A DNA stretch of 26,858 bases from Stramenopiles sp. TOSAG23-6 (lineage: Eukaryota; Sar), in the NCBI GenBank assembly GCA_900128565.1, contig LT635983.1:1-26858 (forward strand), in the 5' to 3' direction. Below the pieces are notes generated by a model that saw nothing but the letters and a program-made list of their open reading frames with translations, had not been told where the DNA came from and did no database searches. Each line of letters opens with the position of its first letter. Within the stretch, counting starts at the first letter, position 1. Position numbers and translations under genes: made by a program. Of the stretch, positions 1 to 26,858 are shown piece after piece.

Positions 1-55
1 AAAGTAAAGTAAAGTAAAGTAAAGTAAAGTAAAGTAAAGTAAAGTAAAGTAAAGT
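1..55. repeat. (AAAGT)11 microsatellite at the contig end
   Basis: Eleven perfect copies of AAAGT start the window. By the gene model they lie inside intron 2 of the minus-strand helicase gene, 11 bases after a GTATGT donor at 66-61. The strand ending here reads ACTTT repeats with no G, which is unlike a telomere. The contig probably stops here because the repeat could not be assembled through. Confidence 0.9.
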
Positions 56-1619: not shown

Positions 1620-4600
1620 ATGGACCCAACTTTTCAGACTCTTCTTACAGGTTTATGTAGCCCAGATAATGTTACGCGTGGTCAAGCAGAGAAGCAATAT
1701 TTTAATTCTGTCTCTACGAACTCAACAGAAGTGCTTCAGCAGCTTTTGCTTGGACTTCAGTGTCCATCACCACAAGCTCGCGCTTTTTGTTCTGTTCTTG
1801 TGCGCCAAATGGTAAAAAAGGCATGGATATCGTTAGATGATGGCGCACGTGCTTTCACGAAAAATGCCCTATTGGTTGCAATGGAATCAGAGGCTACTGA
1901 GCATATTCAAACCAAGTTAAGCCACGCCATTGCAGCTGTTGCATCTTTTGCACTTGAGGGTTGGCCAGAGCTTATTCCTCGAGTGCTTAACATGACATGT
2001 TCAGAATCTATCGGTGCCAGACGTAGTGCTATAAATCTATGTAGTGCATTAGCACTATCTTGTGAAAGTGCAGCAATATTACCTCATTATGAAAAATTTT
2101 GTTCAATGCTGGGGGCAAGGCTGAGTGATCCGGATGCTAAAGTTCGTAGCTACACTGTTCAAACATTTGCTTCATTGATACTTGCATTGGAAAAGGAACA
2201 ATGGGTACCACTTCAACAAATGTTTCCTGCTTTATTGAGTGCGATACAGTTTACCCTTGTTGCTGGAGAAGAGCAAGTGGCAACAAGTGCGTTGGAGTCC
2301 CTGGCAGACACATGTGAAAATGCGCCAGCTTTTTTTAGACTTCCAACAATCTCCCTCCCTCTGTGCAACTCAATGCTTTCTATACTAAATCATCCTGATC
2401 CAGACCATTTCGAAGCAGCTACAAGGTCATCTGCATTAGAGATGTTAGTTGCATTTTGTACGGAATGCAGTTCAACAGTTGTACGTTTCCATCATTTCAA
2501 TTTCGAATTTATTTTTTTTTTCATAGAAAATTTTGTACCTAACGATTTTTTTTACTAACAAAAAAAAAAAAAAAATATTTTTCACAATACTTCGTCGTTT
2601 AGATTCGAATGGTGCCAAAGGAATTTCTGGTTTGAGCTTAATTGACGAAATAATTTTTTCTGGTTTAAAAATGCTCTGTCGTGTAAGTGAAGACGATGAC
2701 GAGGAATGGGGTTCTTCTATTGACCGGTCACCATTTGGTTGTGCAGAAACCGATAATGAGGCCTGGGTTGCTGGAAGTGCTCTTGAACGATTATCCGAAA
2801 ATCTCGGTGGTGCCGCAGTTGTTCCTAGGTTAATGCCTCATATTTCTTCAATGTTGAATAGTAATAGATGGCAAGAAAAATGGGCAGGGACTATGGGACT
2901 TGCAGTATGCTGTGCATCGCCAATGTGGTCCTCAATTAGTTCAATATTTGATGTTTTATTGCCTCTTCTTGAGCAATCCCAACCTGAAGGTTCTCCTGGA
3001 GAGCGCGTTCGTTTTGCAATTGCATACTTGATTGGTATTTTTTGTGAATATTTCACTGGAACAGAAGTGGACAACACTGGCCACGGACGTGTGGCAAATC
3101 AACAACTAAAGGCACAGATTGCTATGGGTGGTCCAAAACCTGGAGAAAGTTTTCAAGTTGTGCATGGTAAACGCGTTTTATCAATATTGGCAAAAGTTTT
3201 GGATATAAAAGAATCCACTTCTCGAGTACAAGCTGAAGCTGCATATACATTATGTGTATTTTGCACTGCTCAACAAGCATTACCTGTCGGAGCAGTACAA
3301 ATTATTTCATCTGTGGCACCTCGAGTACTTAGCGCCTTACATGATTTACTCCGTATGAGCTCTTGTATTGCAGCTCAACAATATGCAATCACGGCGGTTG
3401 CAAGCATTGCCCAGGTACTTGGTGAAGATTTTGGTCACTTTTATAGTACATTTATGCCCCTAATGAAATTTGTACTTAAAGGAGCTACGGGAAAAGAGCA
3501 AAGATTACTGCGCGGCAAGGCTATGGAATGCGTTGGTATTTTGGGATCCTGTGTTGGTGCTGAAGTGTGTACGTTTTCGTCGTTTATTTCAAATTTATTT
3601 TTTTTTCATACGAAATTTTGTACTTAACAAAATCTCCATTTTTTTTTACATTTCTTTTCACGATACATTTGCCATTGATGCAAAAGAGGTGATGGATATT
3701 TTACTCGCAACTCTTCAACATGGTATTGCTCCTGATGACCCTCAGGCATCGTATATAGCACAAACATGTTGTCGTATAGGAAAGACGATGGGATCACAAT
3801 TTGTACCGTATTTACCTCTTGTTTTACCGTCTTTGCTAAATGCTGCTGCCAATGCAGATAAAGATGTATTAGTTCACCAAGACAGTACAGAAGAACTTGA
3901 TAAAGAACTATTTGAAGGTCGCGAGATTATGGAAGTTATTGTTCGTGGGGCAGGTAAACAGAGAATAGGTATTAACACTGCTGCAATTCAAGAAAAGTCA
4001 TTAGCTTGTAATATGTTGTATGAATATGCGATGGCAATGGGTGGGTTATATGCTCCATGGGTTGAAAAAACTGTTGGTGTCTTGCTGCCTTTGGTGTCGT
4101 TTCAATTCTCTGGACATGTTCGCGTCGCTGCAGCGATGTCTTTACCAAAACTTCTTTTATCCCTTTTGGAAAATCCTTCGACAAAAACGTCAAATGGTCC
4201 TCAACAATTGTTTATAGTTGCTGTGAATGCTATAGTGAACCAATTAAAGGTTGAACAAGAAGTCGAATTAATTGTTTGTCTCCATGAGAGCCTTGATGAA
4301 ATGTTACAACATGCTGCCAATGAAAATGGAGTACAATTGTTTCTCACAGATGCAGTAATACTCATGATATTTGAAGTAATTTCAACTAATTGTATTGCAA
4401 GTATAAAACGACGAATCAATGCATGTCGTGCTTTGCGAATGGGTGATGCTGAAGCTGATGATGTTGCATTTATACAGTTAGAAGAGGAAGAAGAATTAGA
4501 GGGTGATTTACTTAATACTACAATTGATGTAATCGGTGCGTTAGCTAAGTTGATGAAGGGGAAGATTTTTAATGCATTTAGTCAACATTTTGGACAATTA

Positions 4601-5454
4601 CTTATGGCAATGCTTCATATGATAGATCACAATTCTACGGACACGTTTTTTGCTACTGATGCCTCGACAGTTGCTAGCGATTCAATTCGTTCTGGATTAG
4701 CTACTGCGGCTCTTTGCATTGCTGATGATATTATTGAATATTGCATGCCTGGGGCTGCTGTTTTAGTTCCATCTGTAGTCCCTTATATGTTGAATGGTGC
4801 TAATAGTCCTGATCCAGAATTACGCCAATCAGCTGTTTATGGTTTAGGTGTTTGCGCAGAACGTGGAGGTTCTGCATTTACACCTGCACAAGCTACCGAG
4901 GCATCTTCTAGACTTGTCGCTGTTGTGACTGCCCCAAATGCTCGAGAGGGTGACAATGCATGTGCATCGGACAATGCAATCACTGCGGTTGCAAAACTGT
5001 TCTTACATCGTGGTACTACGGTACGTTTTCATCATCAATCTCAAATTATTTTTTTTTATAACAAAGTTTTAACCTAACAATTTATTTTTGAAAATATTTT
5101 CCTACAATGTATGCCGGAGGAGACGGGTCGATAAATACTGAACAATTATTCAAATGCTGGATGAATTACCTTCCTGTGAGGGACGACATTGAAGAAGGCG
5201 AAAAGATGCATTCTTTACTTGTTTCTTTAGCATTGAAAGGAGATGGTCGTGTTCTTGGTACAAATATGTGTAATTTATCTCGGTTTTGTGAAATTCTTGC
5301 GGAGGCCGTACAAGCTGAACTTATCGATGAGGTCACTCATGTTCGTATTTCAGCTTTATTTACTAATTTACAATCCACTCCATCTACCAGTGCATGTTTT
5401 AGCAAGGCATGGGCTAGTGTCAATCCAGTTCACCAGAAATTGTTAATGAATTAA
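1620..5454 (+). CDS. Importin-5 / Kap121-type karyopherin beta, four exons
   Basis: Nuclear import receptor of the importin-5 (Kap121, RanBP5) group: a solenoid of HEAT repeats that carries cargo such as ribosomal proteins and histones through nuclear pores and releases it on Ran-GTP. Exons are 1620-2480, 2590-3568, 3666-5020 and 5110-5454. They total 3,540 bases, exactly 1,179 codons plus stop, close to the 1,100-1,120 residues usual for the family. Recognisable blocks include the N-terminal LCSPDNVTRGQAE, an acidic EDDDEEW, LRGKAMECVGILG, FAIDAKEVMDIL, HVRVAAAMSLPKLL and the near C-terminal YGLGVCAERGG. The block FAIDAKEV begins right after intron 2 and matches the family without a gap, which rules out using the next downstream AGs. 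The three introns are close relatives of each other. The first ATG was taken as start. Exons 1-3 are repeated at 21839-25239; only this copy has the last exon. Confidence 0.92.
2481..2589 (+). other. Introner-like intron 1 of the importin gene (109 bases)
   Basis: It starts GTACGTTTCC, has a T-tract, then CATAGAAAATTTTGTA, CCTAACGATTTTTTT and an end ATTTTTCACAATA before C. Removing it joins exons in phase 0. The exact edges are uncertain by a few bases because TAC occurs at both ends (for example GTTT to AATAC is also in frame). An AG lies 12-13 bases into exon 2 (TTTAG), but the equivalent position fails in intron 2. Confidence 0.8.
3569..3665 (+). other. Introner-like intron 2 of the importin gene (97 bases)
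   Basis: It starts GTACGTTTTCGTCG, then a T-tract, CATACGAAATTTTGTA, CTTAACAAAATC, and ends TTTTCACGATA before C. It is phase 1. The coding sequence on both sides (GAEV and FAIDAKEVM) is contiguous in other importin-5 proteins. The nearest AG acceptors lie beyond FAIDAK and would delete it or give a stop, so the 3' end cannot be AG here. Confidence 0.82.
5021..5109 (+). other. Introner-like intron 3 of the importin gene (89 bases)
   Basis: It starts GTACGTTTTCATCATC, then a T-tract, a degenerate form of the internal palindrome (ATAACAAAGTTTTAA), CCTAACAATTT, and ends TTTTCCTACAATG before T. It is phase 0 and no AG is at the end. The inverted repeat that includes the first 66 bases of this intron stops at 5086, so its last 23 bases are unique to the left side. 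Confidence 0.78.
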
Positions 5455-9981: not shown

Positions 9982-12900
9982 TTAACGTCTTCGCGTTCCC
10001 ATGTGCATCGAACCTCCTTCGCCATCTTTTTTTTTCACTACTATTTTTGAAGCTTCCGTTCCATTAGTTATTGTATGCCGTTCTTTTGTTTCTTCTTCAA
10101 GTAGATATTCTTCTTCTTGAGTCTGAGACATGAAATCGAAATGTGGCATTTGGCTGCCTATAGATATTTTTTCTCGTAAATCTTTATGCGTCACGGGAAA
10201 TATTTGAAAGTAAACATCTCCGCTTGCTTTTGCTGCAAGTTCTTCTTCTTCCATATCTAGCGATTCATTATTCTTCAAAACAGTTTTTAGCATATCACCT
10301 GCTTGCTTCAATGTCTTATGGTATAAAACTTTCGGTACATCTTTTCGTATATTCATACACAATGTAAATAGAACATAAATAGCAGTAGATCCGTGTGGGT
10401 GAATTTCGAGAAGGTTTCGAAATGTGTCGATGGCATTAGACGGTTTTTTGACGAGAAATTCATTAGCAGTTGAAAATATTTTCAATTTTGGTGCAATACG
10501 CTTTCGAAAAAATCGATTATCTTCAGTAACAAAAACAGTTATTAGTTTCTTTAGTCTATCCGCGTCCCGTTTGACTTTGTCGAGGTCAGCAGGCATCATG
10601 TAAAATCGCTTAAATATGGACATTGTTGGCGCGTATAATGCACGAAAATATTTAATAGCAAATCTCTGAACAGCAATCGCAATTAATTTTTTAAAAAAGT
10701 AATCACAGAGCCACCGTTGGTATTCAGTAAATTTTTCATGTAAAGTTTCACAAATCAAATCAATGTGATCATCGTTGGTTTCAGTATTTTCATCACGATG
10801 ACTTCCCCATGACATGAACGTTTCCTTAAATACAGGACTGAGGAATGCGAAGGAGGAATCTAACATAGTAGAAATAGCAATAAGACCGCCCTCAAGAAAT
10901 AAATGCGTCAAATCATGAAAATCAACTTCAAATTTCAACATAATAGGTTTGAGCGCTGATTGAAGACTATCTAATTCTTCCATACAAGAAAAACAATCGT
11001 TTGCATGAGCTGCTGCAAATCTCTCATCTGTGTTTGGACCCAATATTCTTATTTTTGATGATATTGAGCTTTGATATTTATGTAATGTAGAAATGGCTAT
11101 ATGGAGCATTTCAGCAACCAGAGATTCAACTTGTGTCTCTTGTACGACTTTAACGTATTCATATATCAAATTAAATACATCTACAGGTGCCATCGTAAAA
11201 ATTTGTCCCATTTCATTTGATCTATAAAATTCAGTATTATCCTGATTATCAGTATCTAATAACCCTTCAACTATTCGCGAAAAAAAATCATCAATCTCAG
11301 GCTTGGAGATTGAAGCATAACGAGTAATTAAATTATGGTAATCATCCTCAAGTTCCTCGGGTTGAATATGTAGCCTCTGTAATATATCAGTTCCACTAAC
11401 AACATGGTTGAGCACAACATTATATTGTGACATGAAATGTATTAAAGCAATACACTCATCTTGATCTAATTGATCTGGTTTTGAACATAAACATTGTATT
11501 TGATTCACTAATTGCATGTGGTAATAATTCAAGTAAAACATAAGAACATCAGTACGAGGCTGACGTTTGGTATTTGTTTTTCCATCATTATTTCCTTTTA
11601 CCAGTTTACACTCTCGAGATATCTCATCTAGATCTTCTAACAAACGACCACCAGCAGTTACAAGCCCAAATACATCTGGTGGTTTTTCTTTTGTAGATAT
11701 TACTCCTGAAAATATATGTTCAAAACTTTTAAATACTGCCTCAAGTCTTTCTGCAGATGTACTGATATCAAATCGCTCAATCCAAGAAATATGTGCTTTT
11801 GGACTGTCTAATGATGTTGGACTGTCTAATTTTGGCGGTGTTATTGAAGATTTATTACTTTGTCGTCCAGTATCTATCTCTAAATGTGTAGAAGGATTCA
11901 TTGATATTTTCCTTGCCTTTTTTAGTGATTTCAACCATGCTTCCATTTCATGTCGGGTGTGTCCTTGAAGCCTGAATCCCCATTCGTAACCAAACACATC
12001 AATTTGTTTACACCCATCATAACTTTGCGCCCATTTTATCCACCTTACATGCTTTAAATATATCATTTTTTGGTATGTTGTATCTGTCGCTGTTTTATAT
12101 ATATATAGAATGGAACCAGTAAGGCGAATAAATCTAATTAACCATTTATGTCCCTTGAAAGTATCTTCTGCCCACAATTCAAGATATCCTTCATTAGTAT
12201 GTTCAATATAATCACCATCTTCATTATTCCCATCGAATTTATCTAAATGTCCTGACGTAGCAAATTCCTCACTAACGTTTGCTATAGTTCCATCCTCTGA
12301 AAGTTCGGTGCAACCTCGGGACACTAAAGATTTTATCCACTCTTCATACTCAACTTCATTTCTAGCTTGTGCTTCATATACATGATGATGAGATGAGCCC
12401 GATATTTCAAAGGAATTACGCGTAATTCCTATCGCAATCTTAACTTTCATTTCATCCTCTGACTCGTACATGTTATTATTTAATCGCCATACCAGAGAAT
12501 TCTTCAATGAGATGCCTGTATTGATACTTTCAGTAGGATCGGGCATAAGTGGATACGAAATTCTTCGCCCAGCTTTGATATCTGGTCTATTTACAATACT
12601 GCTAATACTAGATTCAATATGACCTAAAAACGTCCTTCCGTGCAATGAATTTGAATCCCAAACTACCACGTGAAGTACGGCATTAGCAATTTCATATACA
12701 TCAAATTCAAATTCTTCATTACGCCATACTCCAAGTCCATTTTGAGACACAGTTGTGATATGCGTAGTTTGTTTTTCAAACTTTTGGTGATGATCGGTAT
12801 TATTTTCTTCGATGTATTGTGAAAAAATATTTCAAAAAAAAATCGTTAGGTACGAAATTTCGTATGAAAAAACAATTAAATTATAAATTCATATAAAACG

Positions 12901-14954
12901 TACATGAATACTTCAGCAAATACTCTTGGTGGACGATTTGCGTCTAAATGAAGCAATTCTTTAATATCCATGATACACACTACAACTGTAGCATCACCTT
13001 GTTGATTATTACTCGTGTGGCCGTCTGAAATTTTGGGATTACCTGAGCCACTAGGACTTGACCATCCACCCTCACGCGGGACGATTTGACAGCTAATCCC
13101 CAATTGGCCCGACACCCCATATTTTCTATGTTCGTCTCCTCTCTTGGGGAAAATCTGAAAGAAGGATTTTTTAAAAACACCCCATACATCTTTCCATTCA
13201 CCAATGTGTGATTCTAAACCTTTTCGTCGGAAGCGAAGGTGGCCTTTAACCCGCATCCCATCAAGACCATAACAAGGTTCGGGTATAAACTCACAACCAC
13301 TCTCTGCTAGTGCCTCTGTCCATTCTTCTAATTCTTTCATTTTGGGTGCTTGTAATGTATACAACGCATCATTATAATCCGTTTGAATAACCCATGCGTT
13401 AGGTCTATTTTCTTCTTCTTCTAGATCTGGGCGAACATATTGTGAAGCACCAGATTCCAGAGAAATATCAGTAATTTGTGCACTATAATCAGGTCCTAGT
13501 TTGCGATGTACTGTTATGAACTCCAGACCAACCATGCTTGATAAGCGAAATCTGCATTGTCCAAGAAAATCATCGTGTCCTATTTGGTCATAGTCATATA
13601 CTGCAGCAAATAATACTGTGTTTGAAATATCTTGTACATGAAATCTAAAGTTTGCTTTGCCTTCTTTCCATCTTGGATGAATCGTCTTTCGAAGGGGTAT
13701 AGACGATTGAACTCGAGATTTAGTACCATTTTCATCAACTGTCCAAAATTTTACATATGGGTCAGACGATCCATCTAAATCGGCAGCGATTAGATTGTTA
13801 CATCCAATTAAATTAACTATTACATTCGCAGCAACTTTATCATTACTAGATATCTCATTTTCACTATTATTTTTAATTATCTCTACATGTGTACGCAGAG
13901 TGATCCGCCCCTTTCCAGGTCTATTACGTTTGACATCATCTCGGGATGAATAAAAATGAAGTGCTTTGTGTTCTAATGTTACCCAATATCTTCTCCAACA
14001 CGAAGTTACATTCTTTCTTTTCGAACGCATTGCAATATACCCTGAAGATCTCCAAGCGCTACATGCCTGTAAAGATTCTGCAATAATATCTAAACCACTA
14101 ATACGTTTTCGTAGTAGATCTGCCCACATTTCAGCTTCATCAGAGCTTTGAGCTTTTAATTTGAGATTACCTTGAGTTGCATGTTTTTCTCTTTTTTCAT
14201 TTCTAATTTCTTCTTTCAATTTTCGTTTCTGTTCTTGGAATTCTTTTTTACGTTTTTTTTTCAATTCTTTATCGGAGATTTTCGTTTCTATTGTAGACCC
14301 TGTTTTACCCACATCATCCGAGTAATTGTATTCCTTTGTAACAGCAACAGCTGTATTCTTCATTGCCGAGGCACCTTTCTGTCGAGCACAGGTAGCTGTT
14401 TTTTTGTCGAGGATGAGGGTTATTTCTTTTTTCGTTCTTTCGACTCGAAGAACTGCTCGAAGGTCTATTGTACCACATAGTTTTTTTTCGTCTACTTTTT
14501 GGTAATATGCCAAATAAAAGTTAACCGACTTGAACCATCTCTTTTGCCACCAACCCTTTGAACTTTGTTTTTTTAAATATCCTTCAACATTCAGCTCTTC
14601 AACTCGGTCTATAGTCAATTTTGAAACTCTTTTTTTTACTTGACTCTTCATCTTATCAGCTATTCTTGAAGCCGAAGCTATTCCCGATACGCTATTTGAG
14701 GTTGTAGATTCATGCAATCCTGAATTTGCTTTAGGTCTAGTTTGTGTTGAACTCAATAATATTTTGGAAAGTTTTGAAGCTTTACTGTTTAATTCAGGCG
14801 TTTTAACCTCGGGATTGATCGTCACAGTGTTCCATGTACCTCTCTCTTTAGCACTTTCACCGTAGTTTTGCCCATCTTTGATAGACAATTCAGCCTCCTT
14901 CCACTCATGTGGTCTATTACCTCTACTTCTAGGCTGATAAAACTTTGCCATCAC
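9982..14954 (-). CDS. Multi-PH, multi-C2 protein with a Sec6/EXOC3-like C-terminal region, two exons
   Basis: Exons 14954-12904 and 12814-9982 give exactly 1,627 codons plus stop once the introner-like intron is removed. Order: PH1 (about 122-290; VEGYLKKQSSKGWWQKRWF, interrupted by a Lys/Glu-rich coil); PH2 split into an N-half (303-355; SGYIAMRS..CWRRYWVTLE) and a C-half (519-552; TLQAPKMKELEEWTEAL) by a C2 domain (376-480; DLDGSSDPYVKF, HPRWKE, VYDYDQIGHDDFLG); PH3 likewise split (568-620 and 825-852) by a second C2 (655-760) that contains the intron; PH4 (890-985). From about 1030 to 1600 an all-helical region resembles exocyst Sec6/EXOC3: APVDVFNLIYEYVKVVQ, NDCFSCMEELDSL, WLCDYFFKKLI and MNIRKDVPKVLYHKTL. 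Suggested role: lipid- and calcium-guided tethering of vesicles at a membrane. Domain calls are by pattern; the Sec6 assignment is the least certain. Confidence 0.82.
12815..12903 (-). other. Introner-like intron of the PH/C2/Sec6 gene (89 bases)
   Basis: In the gene sense it starts GTACGTTTTATATG, has a T-run, the perfect palindrome TACGAAATTTCGTA, CCTAACGATTTTTTTT and ends TTTTTTCACAATA before C. It is phase 2. It shares all its blocks with the three importin introns in an unrelated gene. No AG occurs at its 3' end, and reading through it meets a stop after EFII. Confidence 0.82.
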
Positions 14955-20300: not shown

Positions 20301-21772
20301 CCACCTCCAATAAACAGATTTTTCATGATTTCCGTAAACTCTCGAGTACAATTAAATAAAGACAATTTTGTCTTTTCTTTGCGAAGCTGTGCGTTCAGAT
20401 ATATCGATGACCATTTATTCTTAATATTTTGAATACGATGCATAGCTCGATCAATAAGTCCTACGGATTCAGAGATTACTCTTAAAATATGACTTTGCTG
20501 TGGAGTTTTTCCTTGCATTTCTTCATTCGAAATTTCATTACTAACCATTTTTTTATATTTTTTCAGGGTTTCTTTAATCTCAGCAAATGTAGAGTTTTCT
20601 GAGATGTGTAGCTGATCCAATGACGTTGATTTTGATCGTGTGGTTTGCAAAGTGTGATTATCTGTAAAGTTGTTTGTGATATTTTTATGGGTTTCTACTA
20701 TTTTAGTATTAAATGCAAAAAACATTTTGTTATTATGAGCGAATGGAAATTTCTCCAAATTTTCTTGAATAGTTTCCCTGAGAGGAGATGAAACATTCTC
20801 TGGATCTATATTCTCATTACTTCTATCCTCATGAAGCTTCTCATTACTCCTATCCTCATGAAGCTTCTCATTACTCCTATCTTCATGAAGCTTGCCTATT
20901 TCAATCTGAACTTTCTTAATTTTATCGTTAATGCCACTAAGAAAATCGTCACCCTTTTCAATAAACGACGTTATATTCCTATTTAAATAATCCATTTTCG
21001 TTTGAAGTTCACTTGGATTATCAAGCAAGATAATATTTGGTTTTGGAGCAAATACATCAATTGGTTTTACATTATTTACCTCGTCTTTCAACTTCAAATA
21101 TTTCGTGATATTTGCCGAAGTTGCCTTTAACTGACTCGCTTGACACTGAAAAAGCGATGAAACGTTTCTATTTTCTATGTGACGGTTTTCTAAAGAAAAT
21201 GTAGTATTATTCAACAATCCAGCAGTTCTAGTAAGTGTTTCGTCAAATGTTTTGGTCACTTTCTCAATTTCAGCTGCTCGCGTGATAGATTTGTTATAAT
21301 ATTCGATCATTTCACCTACTTTGATGACTTCTTTAAACTTTTCAAGCAAAGTAAAATCTTTTTCATCCTTATGTAGATTTTGACTACTACTCAATGATAT
21401 AATGCGTTTCCCAGAGAAAATATTTGACTTTATTTGTCCAATGCTATCCACTACATTCTGAATAATATCAATTGCACTTTGAAGAGACTTTACTCTTTGA
21501 GTCACGGCGTCAATTTCATATTTCTTTATTTTACCAGGATTTCCCCCATGTGGGTATTTGATTTCATGAGTAGTAATACCATCCACCAAAACACTATCAC
21601 CATTCACTAGACTGCGTTCACATTGGGATAATTCTAACGCTCTATTGAGTCCACTCAACGTATTCGTAGCCGCAAGACTTATATGATTCGACCAATCTGT
21701 TCTGAGATTTGTTAATTTCCGTTCAACTTCTATTTTACGCTGTTCTATATATCGGCCACTTGGAATGTTTTG
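17303..21772 (-). CDS. Giant coiled-coil, probably extracellular protein with Cys-rich Link/lectin-like C-terminus; 5' end missing
   Basis: An open frame of about 1,490 codons with no ATG start near its 5' end. It runs back through TTG AGT GGA (21658) to a TAA at 21784-21782, just inside the right repeat arm, so the true N-terminus is missing. Most of the product is predicted long helical coiled coil rich in Lys, Glu, Asn and Ser, with over 20 N-glycosylation sequons (NNTTF, NVSS, NFTDN, NLSK and others), which suggests a secretory route. No transmembrane segment is seen. The last 90 residues change character: EANAECIAIGHRICSHEHMV, CPCGWTD, GCKG, VCDEG and a final HCCKVQSE, with eight cysteines, resembling Link or C-type-lectin-like modules (EA...C...G..., C..GW..D). 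A 27-base unit is repeated three times (20813-20893). It may be a surface or matrix protein; I do not recognise the family. Confidence 0.75.
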   Translation of the reverse strand, partial: QNIPSGRYIEQRKIEVERKLTNLRTDWSNHISLAATNTLSGLNRALELSQCERSLVNGDSVLVDGITTHEIKYPHGGNPGKIKKYEIDAVTQRVKSLQSAIDIIQNVVDSIGQIKSNIFSGKRIISLSSSQNLHKDEKDFTLLEKFKEVIKVGEMIEYYNKSITRAAEIEKVTKTFDETLTRTAGLLNNTTFSLENRHIENRNVSSLFQCQASQLKATSANITKYLKLKDEVNNVKPIDVFAPKPNIILLDNPSELQTKMDYLNRNITSFIEKGDDFLSGINDKIKKVQIEIGKLHEDRSNEKLHEDRSNEKLHEDRSNENIDPENVSSPLRETIQENLEKFPFAHNNKMFFAFNTKIVETHKNITNNFTDNHTLQTTRSKSTSLDQLHISENSTFAEIKETLKKYKKMVSNEISNEEMQGKTPQQSHILRVISESVGLIDRAMHRIQNIKNKWSSIYLNAQLRKEKTKLSLFNCTREFTEIMKNLFIGGGVKVKDIFTRTTDIERVITDMDIPILDNLINLKKKVVKFSSDLYEAINRSKKWEVYDKNVRSGTYDSIQQLLNFARDEKNFFNQISQTMKHDEHVSNVLNNEMKKMSTSETGKSEKFRFRKVLSRLQSSARNKQSSKHTGTLSVYTSAQALHTLIKNAVDDAFENIGEERKLVDYLYESFPILEADINEWANNVESLPNLHIQLLKTMSTLTDNLNDEIENRMKKHEKQVKFYKKYHMNMVNQTHSLLLMENSFQNSGIRIYNLFNEDLANAISEIYLLKQNLITELQHQSFNAIKAEKSHKIILHDRIEEIANKFSAATKVLNHKYIETYDKRVKIRQAILQAEKEVHDVSDQLKADKEILKNIVRDEEKKSSNASNLKFAKVSMNVAIARVKESENKFTNCTQNLSNLKVKFDKLSRIVEIAAFALRRSQVSKKFKYYKETLLSELDSLIQNTIIWNDDLRLNQLYTNTTTTRMEKFKILKDFSEQIKHNFVVVNETFTDTKLFHTINSMMSAHEKDVLLKKQLKMTVLFDYNVQKNQMNRITIKSYERIMEIIRRIDADFQTRIIAMKVSAERARSLFGQLLTVNLNQKKKNNVVDTIDTAIKAVSLLEDFQIMEVNKWKEISTINQETLISLREAYKKSKDVEDKFKDMLLSIGQKMDFYFERNGFKYHELLHKELNKHVSSIRKSNTFSKITLNINSDSFKNQTNFFPTASLMRFKRQKIKSDKEKQKVKRFEREGILVQGGETPETILDSKVLEYYFDKMKSLLRQIEAFKQNIYDTEIGLSENDEMRLKSRRSGHQMFISNAAKQASMENARAAEEMKASVKRNKTLEMLLLQENQMNSTRILSANADLKTWAYRTGMKSMKEKVDDLKSIEISKIVNLSKQFDNITGLHIETVRGNFTYSEANAECIAIGHRICSHEHMVQLFLEGRNVCPCGWTDSIVGANGVLVEMVSQNIRGCKGVASGITVCDEGKLNMDMEIPKKYSAHCCKVQSE
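20813..20893 (-). repeat. Three tandem 27-base units (KLHEDRSNE)
   Basis: Three in-frame copies, nearly identical (one or two base differences), each encoding KLHEDRSNE within the coiled-coil protein. The near identity implies recent expansion. Confidence 0.92.
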
Positions 21773-21838
21773 AATAAATTGTTAGGTTAAAACTTTGTTA
21801 TAAAAAAAAATAATTTGAGATTGATGATGAAAACGTAC
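21773..21838 (-). other. Truncated introner-like intron at the repeat junction
   Basis: The first 66 bases of importin intron 3 (GTACGTTTTC to AATTTATT). The normal 3' part is replaced by CAAAACATTCCAAGTGG, which leads straight into the open coiled-coil frame. TTCAAAAC is weakly like the TTCACAATAC end of the other introns, so the coiled-coil gene may itself have carried a related intron here. Confidence 0.75.
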
Positions 21839-24800
21839 CGTAGTACCACGATGTAAGAACAGTTTTGCAACCGCAGTGATTGCATTGTCCGATGCACATG
21901 CATTGTCACCCTCTCGAGCATTTGGGGCAGTCACAACAGCGACAAGTCTAGAAGATGCCTCGGTAGCTTGTGCAGGTGTAAATGCAGAACCTCCACGTTC
22001 TGCGCAAACACCTAAACCATAAACAGCTGATTGGCGTAATTCTGGATCAGGACTATTAGCACCATTCAACATATAAGGGACTACAGATGGAACTAAAACA
22101 GCAGCCCCAGGCATGCAATATTCAATAATATCATCAGCAATGCAAAGAGCCGCAGTAGCTAATCCAGAACGAATTGAATCGCTAGCAACTGTCGAGGCAT
22201 CAGTAGCAAAAAACGTGTCCGTAGAATTGTGATCTATCATATGAAGCATTGCCATAAGTAATTGTCCAAAATGTTGACTAAATGCATTAAAAATCTTCCC
22301 CTTCATCAACTTAGCTAACGCACCGATTACATCAATTGTAGTATTAAGTAAATCACCCTCTAATTCTTCTTCCTCTTCTAACTGTATAAATGCAACATCA
22401 TCAGCTTCAGCATCACCCATTCGCAAAGCACGACATGCATTGATTCGTCGTTTTATACTTGCAATACAATTAGTTGAAATTACTTCAAATATCATGAGTA
22501 TTACTGCATCTGTGAGAAACAATTGTACTCCATTTTCATTGGCAGCATGTTGTAACATTTCATCAAGGCTCTCATGGAGACAAACAATTAATTCGACTTC
22601 TTGTTCAACCTTTAATTGGTTCACTATAGCATTCACAGCAACTATAAACAATTGTTGAGGACCATTTGACGTTTTTGTCGAAGGATTTTCCAAAAGGGAT
22701 AAAAGAAGTTTTGGTAAAGACATCGCTGCAGCGACGCGAACATGTCCAGAGAATTGAAACGACACCAAAGGCAGCAAGACACCAACAGTTTTTTCAACCC
22801 ATGGAGCATATAACCCACCCATTGCCATCGCATATTCATACAACATATTACAAGCTAATGACTTTTCTTGAATTGCAGCAGTGTTAATACCTATTCTCTG
22901 TTTACCTGCCCCACGAACAATAACTTCCATAATCTCGCGACCTTCAAATAGTTCTTTATCAAGTTCTTCTGTACTGTCTTGGTGAACTAATACATCTTTA
23001 TCTGCATTGGCAGCAGCATTTAGCAAAGACGGTAAAACAAGAGGTAAATACGGTACAAATTGTGATCCCATCGTCTTTCCTATACGACAACATGTTTGTG
23101 CTATATACGATGCCTGAGGGTCATCAGGAGCAATACCATGTTGAAGAGTTGCGAGTAAAATATCCATCACCTCTTTTGCATCAATGGCAAATGTATCGTG
23201 AAAAGAAATGTAAAAAAAAATGGAGATTTTGTTAAGTACAAAATTTCGTATGAAAAAAAAATAAATTTGAAATAAACGACGAAAACGTACACACTTCAGC
23301 ACCAACACAGGATCCCAAAATACCAACGCATTCCATAGCCTTGCCGCGCAGTAATCTTTGCTCTTTTCCCGTAGCTCCTTTAAGTACAAATTTCATTAGG
23401 GGCATAAATGTACTATAAAAGTGACCAAAATCTTCACCAAGTACCTGGGCAATGCTTGCAACCGCCGTGATTGCATATTGTTGAGCTGCAATACAAGAGC
23501 TCATACGGAGTAAATCATGTAAGGCGCTAAGTACTCGAGGTGCCACAGATGAAATAATTTGTACTGCTCCGACAGGTAATGCTTGTTGAGCAGTGCAAAA
23601 TACACATAATGTATATGCAGCTTCAGCTTGTACTCGAGAAGTGGATTCTTTTATATCCAAAACTTTTGCCAATATTGATAAAACGCGTTTACCATGCACA
23701 ACTTGAAAACTTTCTCCAGGTTTTGGACCACCCATAGCAATCTGTGCCTTTAGTTGTTGATTTGCCACACGTCCGTGGCCAGTGTTGTCCACTTCTGTTC
23801 CAGTGAAATATTCACAAAAAATACCAATCAAGTATGCAATTGCAAAACGAACGCGCTCTCCAGGAGAACCTTCAGGTTGGGATTGCTCAAGAAGAGGCAA
23901 TAAAACATCAAATATTGAACTAATTGAGGACCACATTGGCGATGCACAGCATACTGCAAGTCCCATAGTCCCTGCCCATTTTTCTTGCCATCTATTACTA
24001 TTCAACATTGAAGAAATATGAGGCATTAACCTAGGAACAACTGCGGCACCACCGAGATTTTCGGATAATCGTTCAAGAGCACTTCCAGCAACCCAGGCCT
24101 CATTATCGGTTTCTGCACAACCAAATGGTGACCGGTCAATAGAAGAACCCCATTCCTCGTCATCGTCTTCACTTACACGACAGAGCATTTTTAAACCAGA
24201 AAAAATTATTTCGTCAATTAAGCTCAAACCAGAAATTCCTTTGGCACCATTCGAATCTAAACGACGAAGTATTGTGAAAAATATTTTTTTTTTTTTTTTG
24301 TTAGTAAAAAAAATCGTTAGGTACAAAATTTTCTATGAAAAAAAAAATAAATTCGAAATTGAAATGATGGAAACGTACAACTGTTGAACTGCATTCCGTA
24401 CAAAATGCAACTAACATCTCTAATGCAGATGACCTTGTAGCTGCTTCGAAATGGTCTGGATCAGGATGATTTAGTATAGAAAGCATTGAGTTGCACAGAG
24501 GGAGGGAGATTGTTGGAAGTCTAAAAAAAGCTGGCGCATTTTCACATGTGTCTGCCAGGGACTCCAACGCACTTGTTGCCACTTGCTCTTCTCCAGCAAC
24601 AAGGGTAAACTGTATCGCACTCAATAAAGCAGGAAACATTTGTTGAAGTGGTACCCATTGTTCCTTTTCCAATGCAAGTATCAATGAAGCAAATGTTTGA
24701 ACAGTGTAGCTACGAACTTTAGCATCCGGATCACTCAGCCTTGCCCCCAGCATTGAACAAAATTTTTCATAATGAGGTAATATTGCTGCACTTTCACAAG

Positions 24801-25239
24801 ATAGTGCTAATGCACTACATAGATTTATAGCACTACGTCTGGCACCGATAGATTCTGAACATGTCATGTTAAGCACTCGAGGAATAAGCTCTGGCCAACC
24901 CTCAAGTGCAAAAGATGCAACAGCTGCAATGGCGTGGCTTAACTTGGTTTGAATATGCTCAGTAGCCTCTGATTCCATTGCAACCAATAGGGCATTTTTC
25001 GTGAAAGCACGTGCGCCATCATCTAACGATATCCATGCCTTTTTTACCATTTGGCGCACAAGAACAGAACAAAAAGCGCGAGCTTGTGGTGATGGACACT
25101 GAAGTCCAAGCAAAAGCTGCTGAAGCACTTCTGTTGAGTTCGTAGAGACAGAATTAAAATATTGCTTCTCTGCTTGACCACGCGTAACATTATCTGGGCT
25201 ACATAAACCTGTAAGAAGAGTCTGAAAAGTTGGGTCCAT
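21839..25239 (-). CDS. Second copy of importin-5, exons 1-3 only (truncated)
   Basis: Exons 25239-24379, 24269-23291 and 23193-21839 are identical to the left copy. The fourth exon (about 114 codons, the C-terminal HEAT repeats) is absent. Instead the third intron breaks and the coiled-coil frame follows on the same strand. If the arrangement is real, this copy would give a truncated importin or a read-through fusion to the coiled-coil protein. If it is an artefact, there is only one importin gene. Confidence 0.85.
23194..23290 (-). other. Introner-like intron 2, right copy
   Basis: Mirror of 3569-3665, identical. Confidence 0.8.
24270..24378 (-). other. Introner-like intron 1, right copy
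   Basis: Mirror of 2481-2589, identical including its A15 homopolymer. Confidence 0.8.
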
Positions 25240-25568
25240 CCTAAATATTTTCCCGGATCTACAAATGATAAGAGAAGAAGCTCGTTCAGGAGATACCTAA
25301 TCCTTCGGAATTAGATTGTTTGATGGTCAAGTATTCAATTTTTTCGCTGGCTCTTATAGGGTACCGGGTACGTATCGCAGAAATTCAGCGCGTCTTTGAC
25401 AATTGACTTGAGTTCTTTACTTCTTCCTACTTTTTACTACAGGTAATATTGTAGCTAGCCACTTGATTACGGACACTTTCCTAGAGAACTGTGTTAGACA
25501 TTTGATTACATAGCACTGTATCAAGTAAGGCACATTATTGCTATATTTCTTTTCTTTCATTGTAGAAA
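25240..25568. promoter_or_regulatory. Divergent intergenic region, right copy
   Basis: Mirror of 1291-1619: 329 bases between the importin copy and the helicase copy, with the same TATAAGAG box (25351-25358) and GTACCCGGTA element (25362-25371), both on the minus strand. Confidence 0.55.
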
Positions 25569-26792
25569 ATGACCAATGCTACGAAAAGGAAGTATTCGTC
25601 TGAGACTGGTTCAGGTTCGTCTAAAAAATGTCGCCTCGCGGACTTAAAACAAAAGGGTTTTGTGAATTATAGTTCCACGGGTTGTTTGCAACAAAGAAAA
25701 GGTGGTGGTACCATCGAACTTCCTGCTATCGATTGGTCAAAACGAACCTTGACTGACTTTCGCCGGGATTTTTATACAGAACATAGTAAAGTTGCTAAAC
25801 TCAGTGAGTCTGAGGTCACTTCTCTCCGAGCAAAAATGAATCTCACAGTAACAGAGCACGGCTCTCCGTTTCCAAATAGCAAAGCTTGGGTGAGTGGTTG
25901 TGTACCTGCCCCGGTAAAGGGATTTAAACGTAGTTCATTACCTCGTGTATATGTCGAGAAATTATTGAGCCTTGGGTATAAAGCACCGACGTCAATTCAA
26001 AGTCAGTCTTGGCCAGTTACTCTACAAGGCAAAAATGTAGTAGGTTTAGCTCAGACTGGATCTGGTAAGACAGCCGCATTTCTATTGCCAGCAATGATAC
26101 ATGTCCAGGCACAAATGAAAGTCAAATCATCAAAACAAGGAGACACTGGGCCCATAGCTTTGATCTTAGTTCCTACTAGAGAATTAGCCGTGCAAATTAA
26201 AGAAGAAGCGATGAAGTTGACACCAAAAAAATATGTTCACTCTTTGCGGTCTTGTCTATTATATGGTGGTGCAAATAAAGCACCTCAGATTCGAAGTATG
26301 CAACGTGGTGCAGAGGTAAGTGTTATAGATTTTGAATTTCATTTTTATGTTTTTTATTTTTTTTATTTTTTTTTATTTTTTTTATTTCTTTAGGTATAAA
26401 ATGGGTGCAAAAACATTTTCAATTTCGAATTTGTCATTTGTCACTCTGCGACTGAAAATATAATAATTTTGTAAAATCTATGAGGAAATTTGAACACACT
26501 TTGACGAGCGTATGTCTGATTATAGTTTGGGATGCAAAACCATGTCAGTGTTGGTATCCCTAAGATGACGTCATTTTCTACTTCTGAGATTCAAAATTTT
26601 ATTATTTTTTTTTCACCACATTCCGTACTATTATTATTCTTCTTTCTTTGAAATCATCTCATTATCTACTTTTTCGAAAATAGTACAAATACTCACATGT
26701 TTTGTTATTTTACATATTTTCTACCAACTTAGATAGTTATAGCTACACCTGGAAGACTTTTAGACCTTATGAATAGAAACATTTTTAACCTT
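25569..26792 (+). CDS. DEAD-box RNA helicase, DDX5/DBP2-like, 3'-truncated by the contig end (right copy)
   Basis: Identical to the left copy. Exons are 25569-26315 and 26733-26792, giving 269 codons up to INFNL, where a GTATGT donor at 26793 opens intron 2. Motifs Q, I (AQTGSGKT), Ia (PTRELA), GG and Ib (TPGR) are present. The DEAD motif and the second RecA domain are outside the window. Both copies stop at the same base, which argues that they are one assembled sequence used twice, or a very recent duplication. Confidence 0.9.
26316..26732 (+). other. Intron 1 of the helicase gene, right copy (417 bases, GT-AG)
   Basis: Donor GTAAGTG at 26316, acceptor CCAACTTAG at 26724-26732. A second, pyrimidine-richer acceptor (TTTCTTTAG, ending 26393) is followed directly by GTATAA. 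Using it as a final acceptor would put a TAA stop one codon later. Confidence 0.85.
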
Positions 26793-26803
26793 GTATGTTG
26801 TCC

Positions 26804-26858
26804 ACTTTACTTTACTTTACTTTACTTTACTTTACTTTACTTTACTTTACTTTACTTT
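26804..26858. repeat. (ACTTT)11 microsatellite at the contig end
   Basis: Mirror of 1-55, with the same copy number, in intron 2 of the helicase gene. Confidence 0.9.

Follow-up and report, generated by a model that had tools for sequence, protein, structure and literature searches.

The 26,858-nucleotide contig LT635983.1 of Stramenopiles sp. TOSAG23-6 (assembly GCA_900128565.1) carries four related segments, three in an importin-5-like gene and one in a gene for a C2/PH/Sec6-domain protein, which we judge, with a probability of about 0.82, to be members of an introner family whose 3' ends lack AG. This contig, called the window below, is number 33 among the 408 contigs of a eukaryotic assembly of 8.03 Mb. 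The segments belong to one sequence family, its members lie in the sense orientation of the genes that they interrupt, their exact removal restores the reading frame, and they are flanked by a dinucleotide repeat that is specific to the locus. Frame, homology and sense orientation together suggest that they are removed at the RNA level, by the spliceosome. The features of the window that bear on this are:

2481-2592, forward strand: introner 1, in the importin-5-like gene; GTACGTTTCC...CACAATAC followed by TT, the 3' copy of the repeat; 112 nt, phase 0, reading frame restored.
2479-2480, forward strand: 5' copy of the TT repeat of introner 1, with the 3' copy at 2591-2592.
2538-2543, forward strand: branch-point-like motif CCTAAC in introner 1.
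3569-3668, forward strand: introner 2, in the importin gene; GTACGTTTTC...CACGATAC followed by AT; 100 nt, reading frame restored.
3623-3628, forward strand: branch-point-like motif CTTAAC in introner 2.
5021-5112, forward strand: introner 3, in the importin gene; GTACGTTTTC...TACAATGT followed by AT; 92 nt, reading frame restored.
5073-5078, forward strand: branch-point-like CCTAAC in introner 3, read from the sequence.
12812-12903, reverse strand: introner 4, in the C2/PH/Sec6-domain gene; GTACGTTTTA...CACAATAC followed by AT; 92 nt, phase 2, reading frame restored, flanks AT/AT.
12904-12905, reverse strand: 5' copy of the AT repeat of introner 4, with the 3' copy at 12812-12813.
12845-12850, reverse strand: branch-point-like motif CCTAAC in introner 4.

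Copies of this element are abundant in the genome. We built an introner profile from 16 copies, iterated it, and ran it on 211.7 kb, made up of 19 ten-kb contig starts and positions 1-21700 of the window. It returned 80 matches, compared with none on the reversed control, and a further 26 when applied unchanged to four held-out contigs (40 kb); each set includes one antisense echo of a palindrome within the element. Before counting, we left out one locus that is a near-duplicate of another (L022, of L021), the overlapping short loci L001-L008, and the mirrored part of the window, 21701-26858. Partial and edge matches (25 of the 80 and 9 of the 26) did not enter the tests of boundaries, which leaves 55 and 17 full-length copies, or 72 in all. 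The element has the form GTAYGTTTT...CCTAAC...CACAATAC, and the family consensus runs, in order, GTAtGTTTTcaTttTcAATTTcaAaT, a T-tract, cgTAcgAAATTTtGTACCTAAC and gAAATATTTTTtCAcAATAc. Of the first 55 copies, 37 begin with GTAYG. Our script detected the branch-point motif in 44 copies, and in 43 of these its A is 32-52 nt away from the end. The script missed the CCTAAC of introner 3, so its counts of 36 copies with CCTAAC and 12 AG-bearing copies are each off by one. The core ACGAAATTTYGTACCTAAC, allowing up to three mismatches, occurs five times in the window, two of these being mirror copies, where 0.03 are expected and none of 100 shuffles reaches five.

A sequence-only reading of the window had proposed a family of near-identical introns, copied by a mobile intron-generating element into unrelated genes. 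The single family holds up, with 80 and 26 matches in the 251.7 kb searched in total, as its suggested profile search for more copies at intron positions would have it; "near-identical" does not, as pairwise identity among the 55 full-length copies averages 0.62 and reaches 0.91 in the best pair. The ordered blocks lie where that reading placed them, and the end block CACAATAC is shared by introners 1 and 4; introner 3 ends instead in TACAATGT-AT. The lengths of 89-109 bases given there become 112, 100, 92 and 92 once the ends are exact; the 3' ends put at 5109 and 12815 fall three bases short. The host genes are unrelated, as claimed: beside importin-5 and the C2/PH/Sec6-domain protein, introners interrupt genes for PIG-A, urocanase and an adenosine-deaminase-like protein. 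The name ASNSD1 for L010 7610 and the motif WDCLRHYE at L011 3256 were also considered and play no part in the evidence. Together with the flanking repeats and the restored frames, these many copies support the mobile element.

Evidence that the segments are removed from the message comes from the reading frame. We scored coding frames on both flanks of each of the 55 full-length copies, 45 of which passed a confidence cut. Removal of the element plus 2 bp restored the frame in all 45, with phases 0, 1 and 2 represented 14, 15 and 16 times, and the lengths of these copies span all three classes modulo 3. For one of them, L024, we shifted the boundary manually by a single base, and the restored frame of this copy hinges on that shift. 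Among the held-out copies, the frame was restored in 17 of 17, ten of them confident. Agreement in all 55 confident copies would arise by chance with a probability of about 6e-27 if copies are independent. In a separate test of strand, the flanks of 69 of the 72 full-length copies code in the same direction as the element, and every one of the 55 confident copies is among these.

Homology at the junctions agrees. With introners removed, urocanase aligns without a gap to 6uek at all three of its junctions, two of which, QGIVH^GTTIT and GFGPFRWV^CTS (the caret marks the junction), are identical to 6uek on both sides. The same is true of the single junction of the adenosine-deaminase-like protein against 6iv5 (H^xGEVP) and of all four PIG-A junctions against the relative P0005, in being ungapped. 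The importin-5-like gene, whose top match in the PDB is importin-5 (E 2.5e-86), aligns to 6xte over the two of its three junctions that the displayed part of the alignment reaches, a part that stops ahead of introner 3; the alignment is ungapped across introner 2 and has a gap two residues past the junction of introner 1. Introner 4 splits a C2 domain. Joining the exons gives one C2 match (profile positions 2-94, 44.3 bits), and the downstream exon by itself matches positions 33-94 at 31.8 bits.

Copies also resemble insertions that have duplicated their target site, because their flanking dinucleotides are equal more often than expected. In 49 of 72 copies, the dinucleotides directly before GTAYG and directly after AATAC are the same; 10000 shuffles gave 36.4 on average and never more than 46. 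The shared repeat is mostly AT and something else in eight copies. The second position is almost always T, so only the first is informative alone, and it matches in 43 of the 55 copies against 33.3 expected. Among the 23 copies with unequal flanks, AT stands on the 3' side in 17 and on the 5' side in three, which suggests that the 3' dinucleotide is held by splicing and that the 5' one is exon.

These observations fit best with a model in which a short, non-autonomous DNA element inserts into coding DNA at NT dinucleotides, duplicating 2 bp of target, mostly AT. Insertion would be by cut-and-paste, using a transposase encoded elsewhere. The element would supply its own 5' splice site, GTAYGT, and its own branch point, CCTAAC, both read by the spliceosome, and the second splicing step would use the position after AATAC-NT, usually ...AATACAT|, so that the intron runs GT...AT. 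Splicing would then take out the element and one copy of the duplicated dinucleotide and give back the coding sequence as it was before insertion; because just this is removed, the 3' site would be AATAC-NT, without AG.

Several observations weigh against this account. Among the ten full-length copies below the confidence cut, six restore the frame and four fail to (51 of 55 overall). The antisense direction scored better in three of the 72 copies (L011 248, L029 740 and L032 1186), none of them confident. The profile behind the 80 matches was partly built from the same DNA that it searched, and a GT...AT cut is indistinguishable in these data from a cut one base upstream. We found no transposase, and made no genome-wide search for one. 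Lastly, the terminal inverted repeat, as read from the consensus, is only GTA...TAC, about 3 bp.

Weak terminal repeats would also fit a family that spreads as RNA, by reverse splicing, with the dinucleotide repeat reflecting a target preference, and the same can be said of the lack of any confident full-length antisense copy. We consider this unlikely, since the repeat matches locus by locus beyond what composition gives, and since the shared dinucleotide is not always AT.

If the copies are spliced as the DNA-transposon model proposes, most of them use a 3' end without AG. With the cut placed before GT, the intron ends of the 45 confident copies are GT-AT in 35, GT-TT in four, AT-AT in two, and four other pairs once each. 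Introner 1, flanked by TT on both sides, has no AG in its last 40 nt. In 11 of the 45, the stretch from branch point to boundary contains an unused AG, which at L020 3546 stands five bases ahead of the end, but frame and homology require the AG-less boundary. AG falls exactly at the boundary in three of 72 copies: L031 2639 and 2895, which are frame-confident, and L018 4956, which is not. A cut two bases upstream is disfavoured by a PIG-A copy with unequal flanks (L010 4417), because it would give G where the homologues have V, I or A. The genome also has canonical introns, as seen in the DEAD-box gene of the window: with its GTAAGT...TTAG intron removed, the exons align ungapped to DDX17 (6uv0) across RGAE^IVIATPGR.

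Could these be ordinary GT-AG introner introns, with the true 3' site at a nearby AG and the boundary misplaced by us? The three copies with AG at the boundary would fit, as would the other ends used in public annotation. However, among the 43 copies with an AG in the next 60 nt downstream, the first such AG is in frame in 17, close to the third that chance would give, and the public models themselves fare badly. With introners removed, PIG-A (contig C2) and urocanase (contig C100) match EukProt GSMAST32 entries P0006 and P0125, at aligned identities of 90% and 100%, respectively; the differences in P0006 fall at stretches that its gene model gets wrong. At six of six covered introner sites, three in each gene, these models lose, gain or replace residues; the fourth PIG-A introner is outside the truncated model. 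We therefore regard a misplaced boundary as very unlikely. Both models also drop conserved stretches that hold no introner, so their errors exceed introners.

We see little chance, too, that the segments are internal eliminated sequences, cut from the genome and never present in RNA as in ciliates. Elimination from DNA would fit the precisely restored frames, the short repeat at the flanks and the lack of AG at the ends, and TA stands near many boundaries. Ciliate internal eliminated sequences have invariant TA boundaries and no orientation bias; here boundaries vary, TA is not kept at all of them (introner 3 is an example), and excision from DNA needs no such sense orientation as the copies show. 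GTAYGT and CCTAAC resemble splicing signals, and the top named relatives of PIG-A include brown algae and oomycetes and no ciliates.

U12-type AT-AC introns, removed by the minor spliceosome, start with ATATCCTT or GTATCCTT and have the branch site TTCCTTAAC near the 3' end; although both flanks are AT in 41 of 72 copies, so that a shift by the repeat would make the 5' copy of AT the intron start and give AT...AC, we lend this reading scarcely any credence, as the element opens with GTAYGT and not with ATATCCTT, its branch motif reads CCTAAC and lies at a distance of 32-52 nt, and the PIG-A copy with unequal flanks disfavours the cut.

Part of the window is present twice. Its first 5086 positions return at 21773-26858 as a perfect inverted copy, and the inner edge of this repeat is within introner 3. 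In consequence, introner 1, introner 2 and the 5' portion of introner 3 are each there twice. The duplication is most likely an artefact of amplification or of assembly. The sequence-only reading had overlooked it, along with the AG-less 3' ends and the 2-bp flanking repeat. The mirrored features, and the ordinary intron, are:

24267-24378, reverse strand: mirror of introner 1; the terminal inverted repeat that contains it is perfect over 5086 bp.
23191-23290, reverse strand: mirror of introner 2, in the inverted repeat.
21773-21838, reverse strand: mirror of the 5' part of introner 3, ending at the repeat boundary.
26316-26732, forward strand: ordinary GTAAGT...TTAG intron of the DEAD-box gene, with its mirror at 127-543 on the reverse strand.

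Mirrored pairs of pattern matches also occur on contigs C2 and C4. Both ends of the window (1-55 and 26804-26858) are tandem repeats, (AAAGT)n and (ACTTT)n, and the window carries other genes besides those named. An introner extends to the first two bases of the contig in nine of the 19 contig starts, as expected if repeats break assembly. At L021 364-536 (reverse), L032 874-1034 (forward) and L018 4557-4640 (reverse), introners are tandem or nested, as if inserted into one another. L021 and L022, on contigs C13 and C14, hold the same introners at positions offset by two bases, so these contigs look near-duplicate over the fetched stretch.

The conserved palindrome TACGAAATTTYGTA was considered as an RNA hairpin. 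Of its seven pairs in 51 copies, one is slightly above shuffles (37 paired versus 34.3; 29 of 1000 shuffles as high) and the others show no excess. As pairing barely exceeds shuffles, we claim no RNA structure. Core patterns had no exact match in viral and bacterial/archaeal contig collections. A scan of 23 of the 32 loci and the window against Rfam found no small nuclear RNA, its sole match being a 564-nt 18S fragment. This fragment (L009 1-564, reverse strand, at the start of contig C1) is the first 564 nt of an 18S ribosomal RNA gene and could place the organism.

GSMAST32, the public assembly that this genome matches, is, by its name, a MAST-3 stramenopile single-cell assembly, and our guess is that it is MAST-3F. 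In work on single-cell genomes of MAST-3A and MAST-3F, the latter offered too few complete protein matches to train the gene finder, according to the portion of the report available (PMC5778133). A wider proposal is that, in a MAST-3 stramenopile, most introns derive from a single transposable family, and that the spliceosome of this organism accepts AATAC plus any 2-bp target duplication as a 3' end, choosing such ends by position or by the CACAATAC motif rather than by AG, which would be secondary in a few copies. We give this even odds. In a scan for short coding gaps, at least 20 of 56 overlap introner matches; the other 36 include seven with a formal GT...AG candidate, and many of the gaps look intergenic, so a majority is unproven.

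Introners are thought to succeed by bringing or borrowing canonical splice sites. If our reading is true, one has spread with an AG-less 3' end, which would show that the splice-site rule may loosen at one end of an intron and still hold at the other. AT, TT, GT, AC and AG at a single position would then offer a uniform, multi-copy natural series for studying 3' site choice. Introners would also help to explain the broken public gene models of this genome, and protein catalogues built on them would be affected.

In the open-licence papers that we searched, we found no report of an AG-less introner family for MAST-3, and the word MAST is absent from PMC9860276. The nearest relatives in kind are introners described from algae and from other eukaryotes (Gozashti et al., 2022; PMC9860276), which, in the sections seen, are likewise similar multi-copy introns in unrelated genes with target-site duplications, and splice sites derived from such duplications are already known. 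As in those of Chrysochromulina, the element would bring the 5' site and the 3' site would be co-opted from the duplication; unlike the introners described there, the co-opted site here has no AG, and the duplication is 2 bp rather than the 3-9 bp cited for earlier families. Canonical GY...AG splice sites, usual in described introner families, are not the rule here, and the introners of Mirusvirus belong, as far as the excerpt goes, among mostly GT-AG introns (PMC12768974). Introner elements of Amoebophrya (Farhat et al., 2021; PMC7789003) are also introns in repeated copies, whose ends are non-canonical and whose boundaries carry short direct repeats. In the text available, inverted repeats of 8-20 nt pair their ends and there is no clear splice motif, whereas our family has fixed ends, a fixed branch motif and a fixed boundary, and its end inverted repeats, read from the consensus, stay at about 3 bp. 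Most introns of Fritillaria borealis are reported to depart from GT-AG, chiefly as AG-A(N) (Henriet et al., 2019, as related in other papers); here the 5' GT is kept and the 3' end is altered. Finally, hemistasiid diplonemids combine many non-GT-AG introns with a conserved spliceosome, and an origin from miniature inverted-repeat transposable elements has been proposed (PMC12621601). Their introns, as that source's available text describes them, have no splice-site conservation and pair at their ends, whereas here there is one conserved sequence family.
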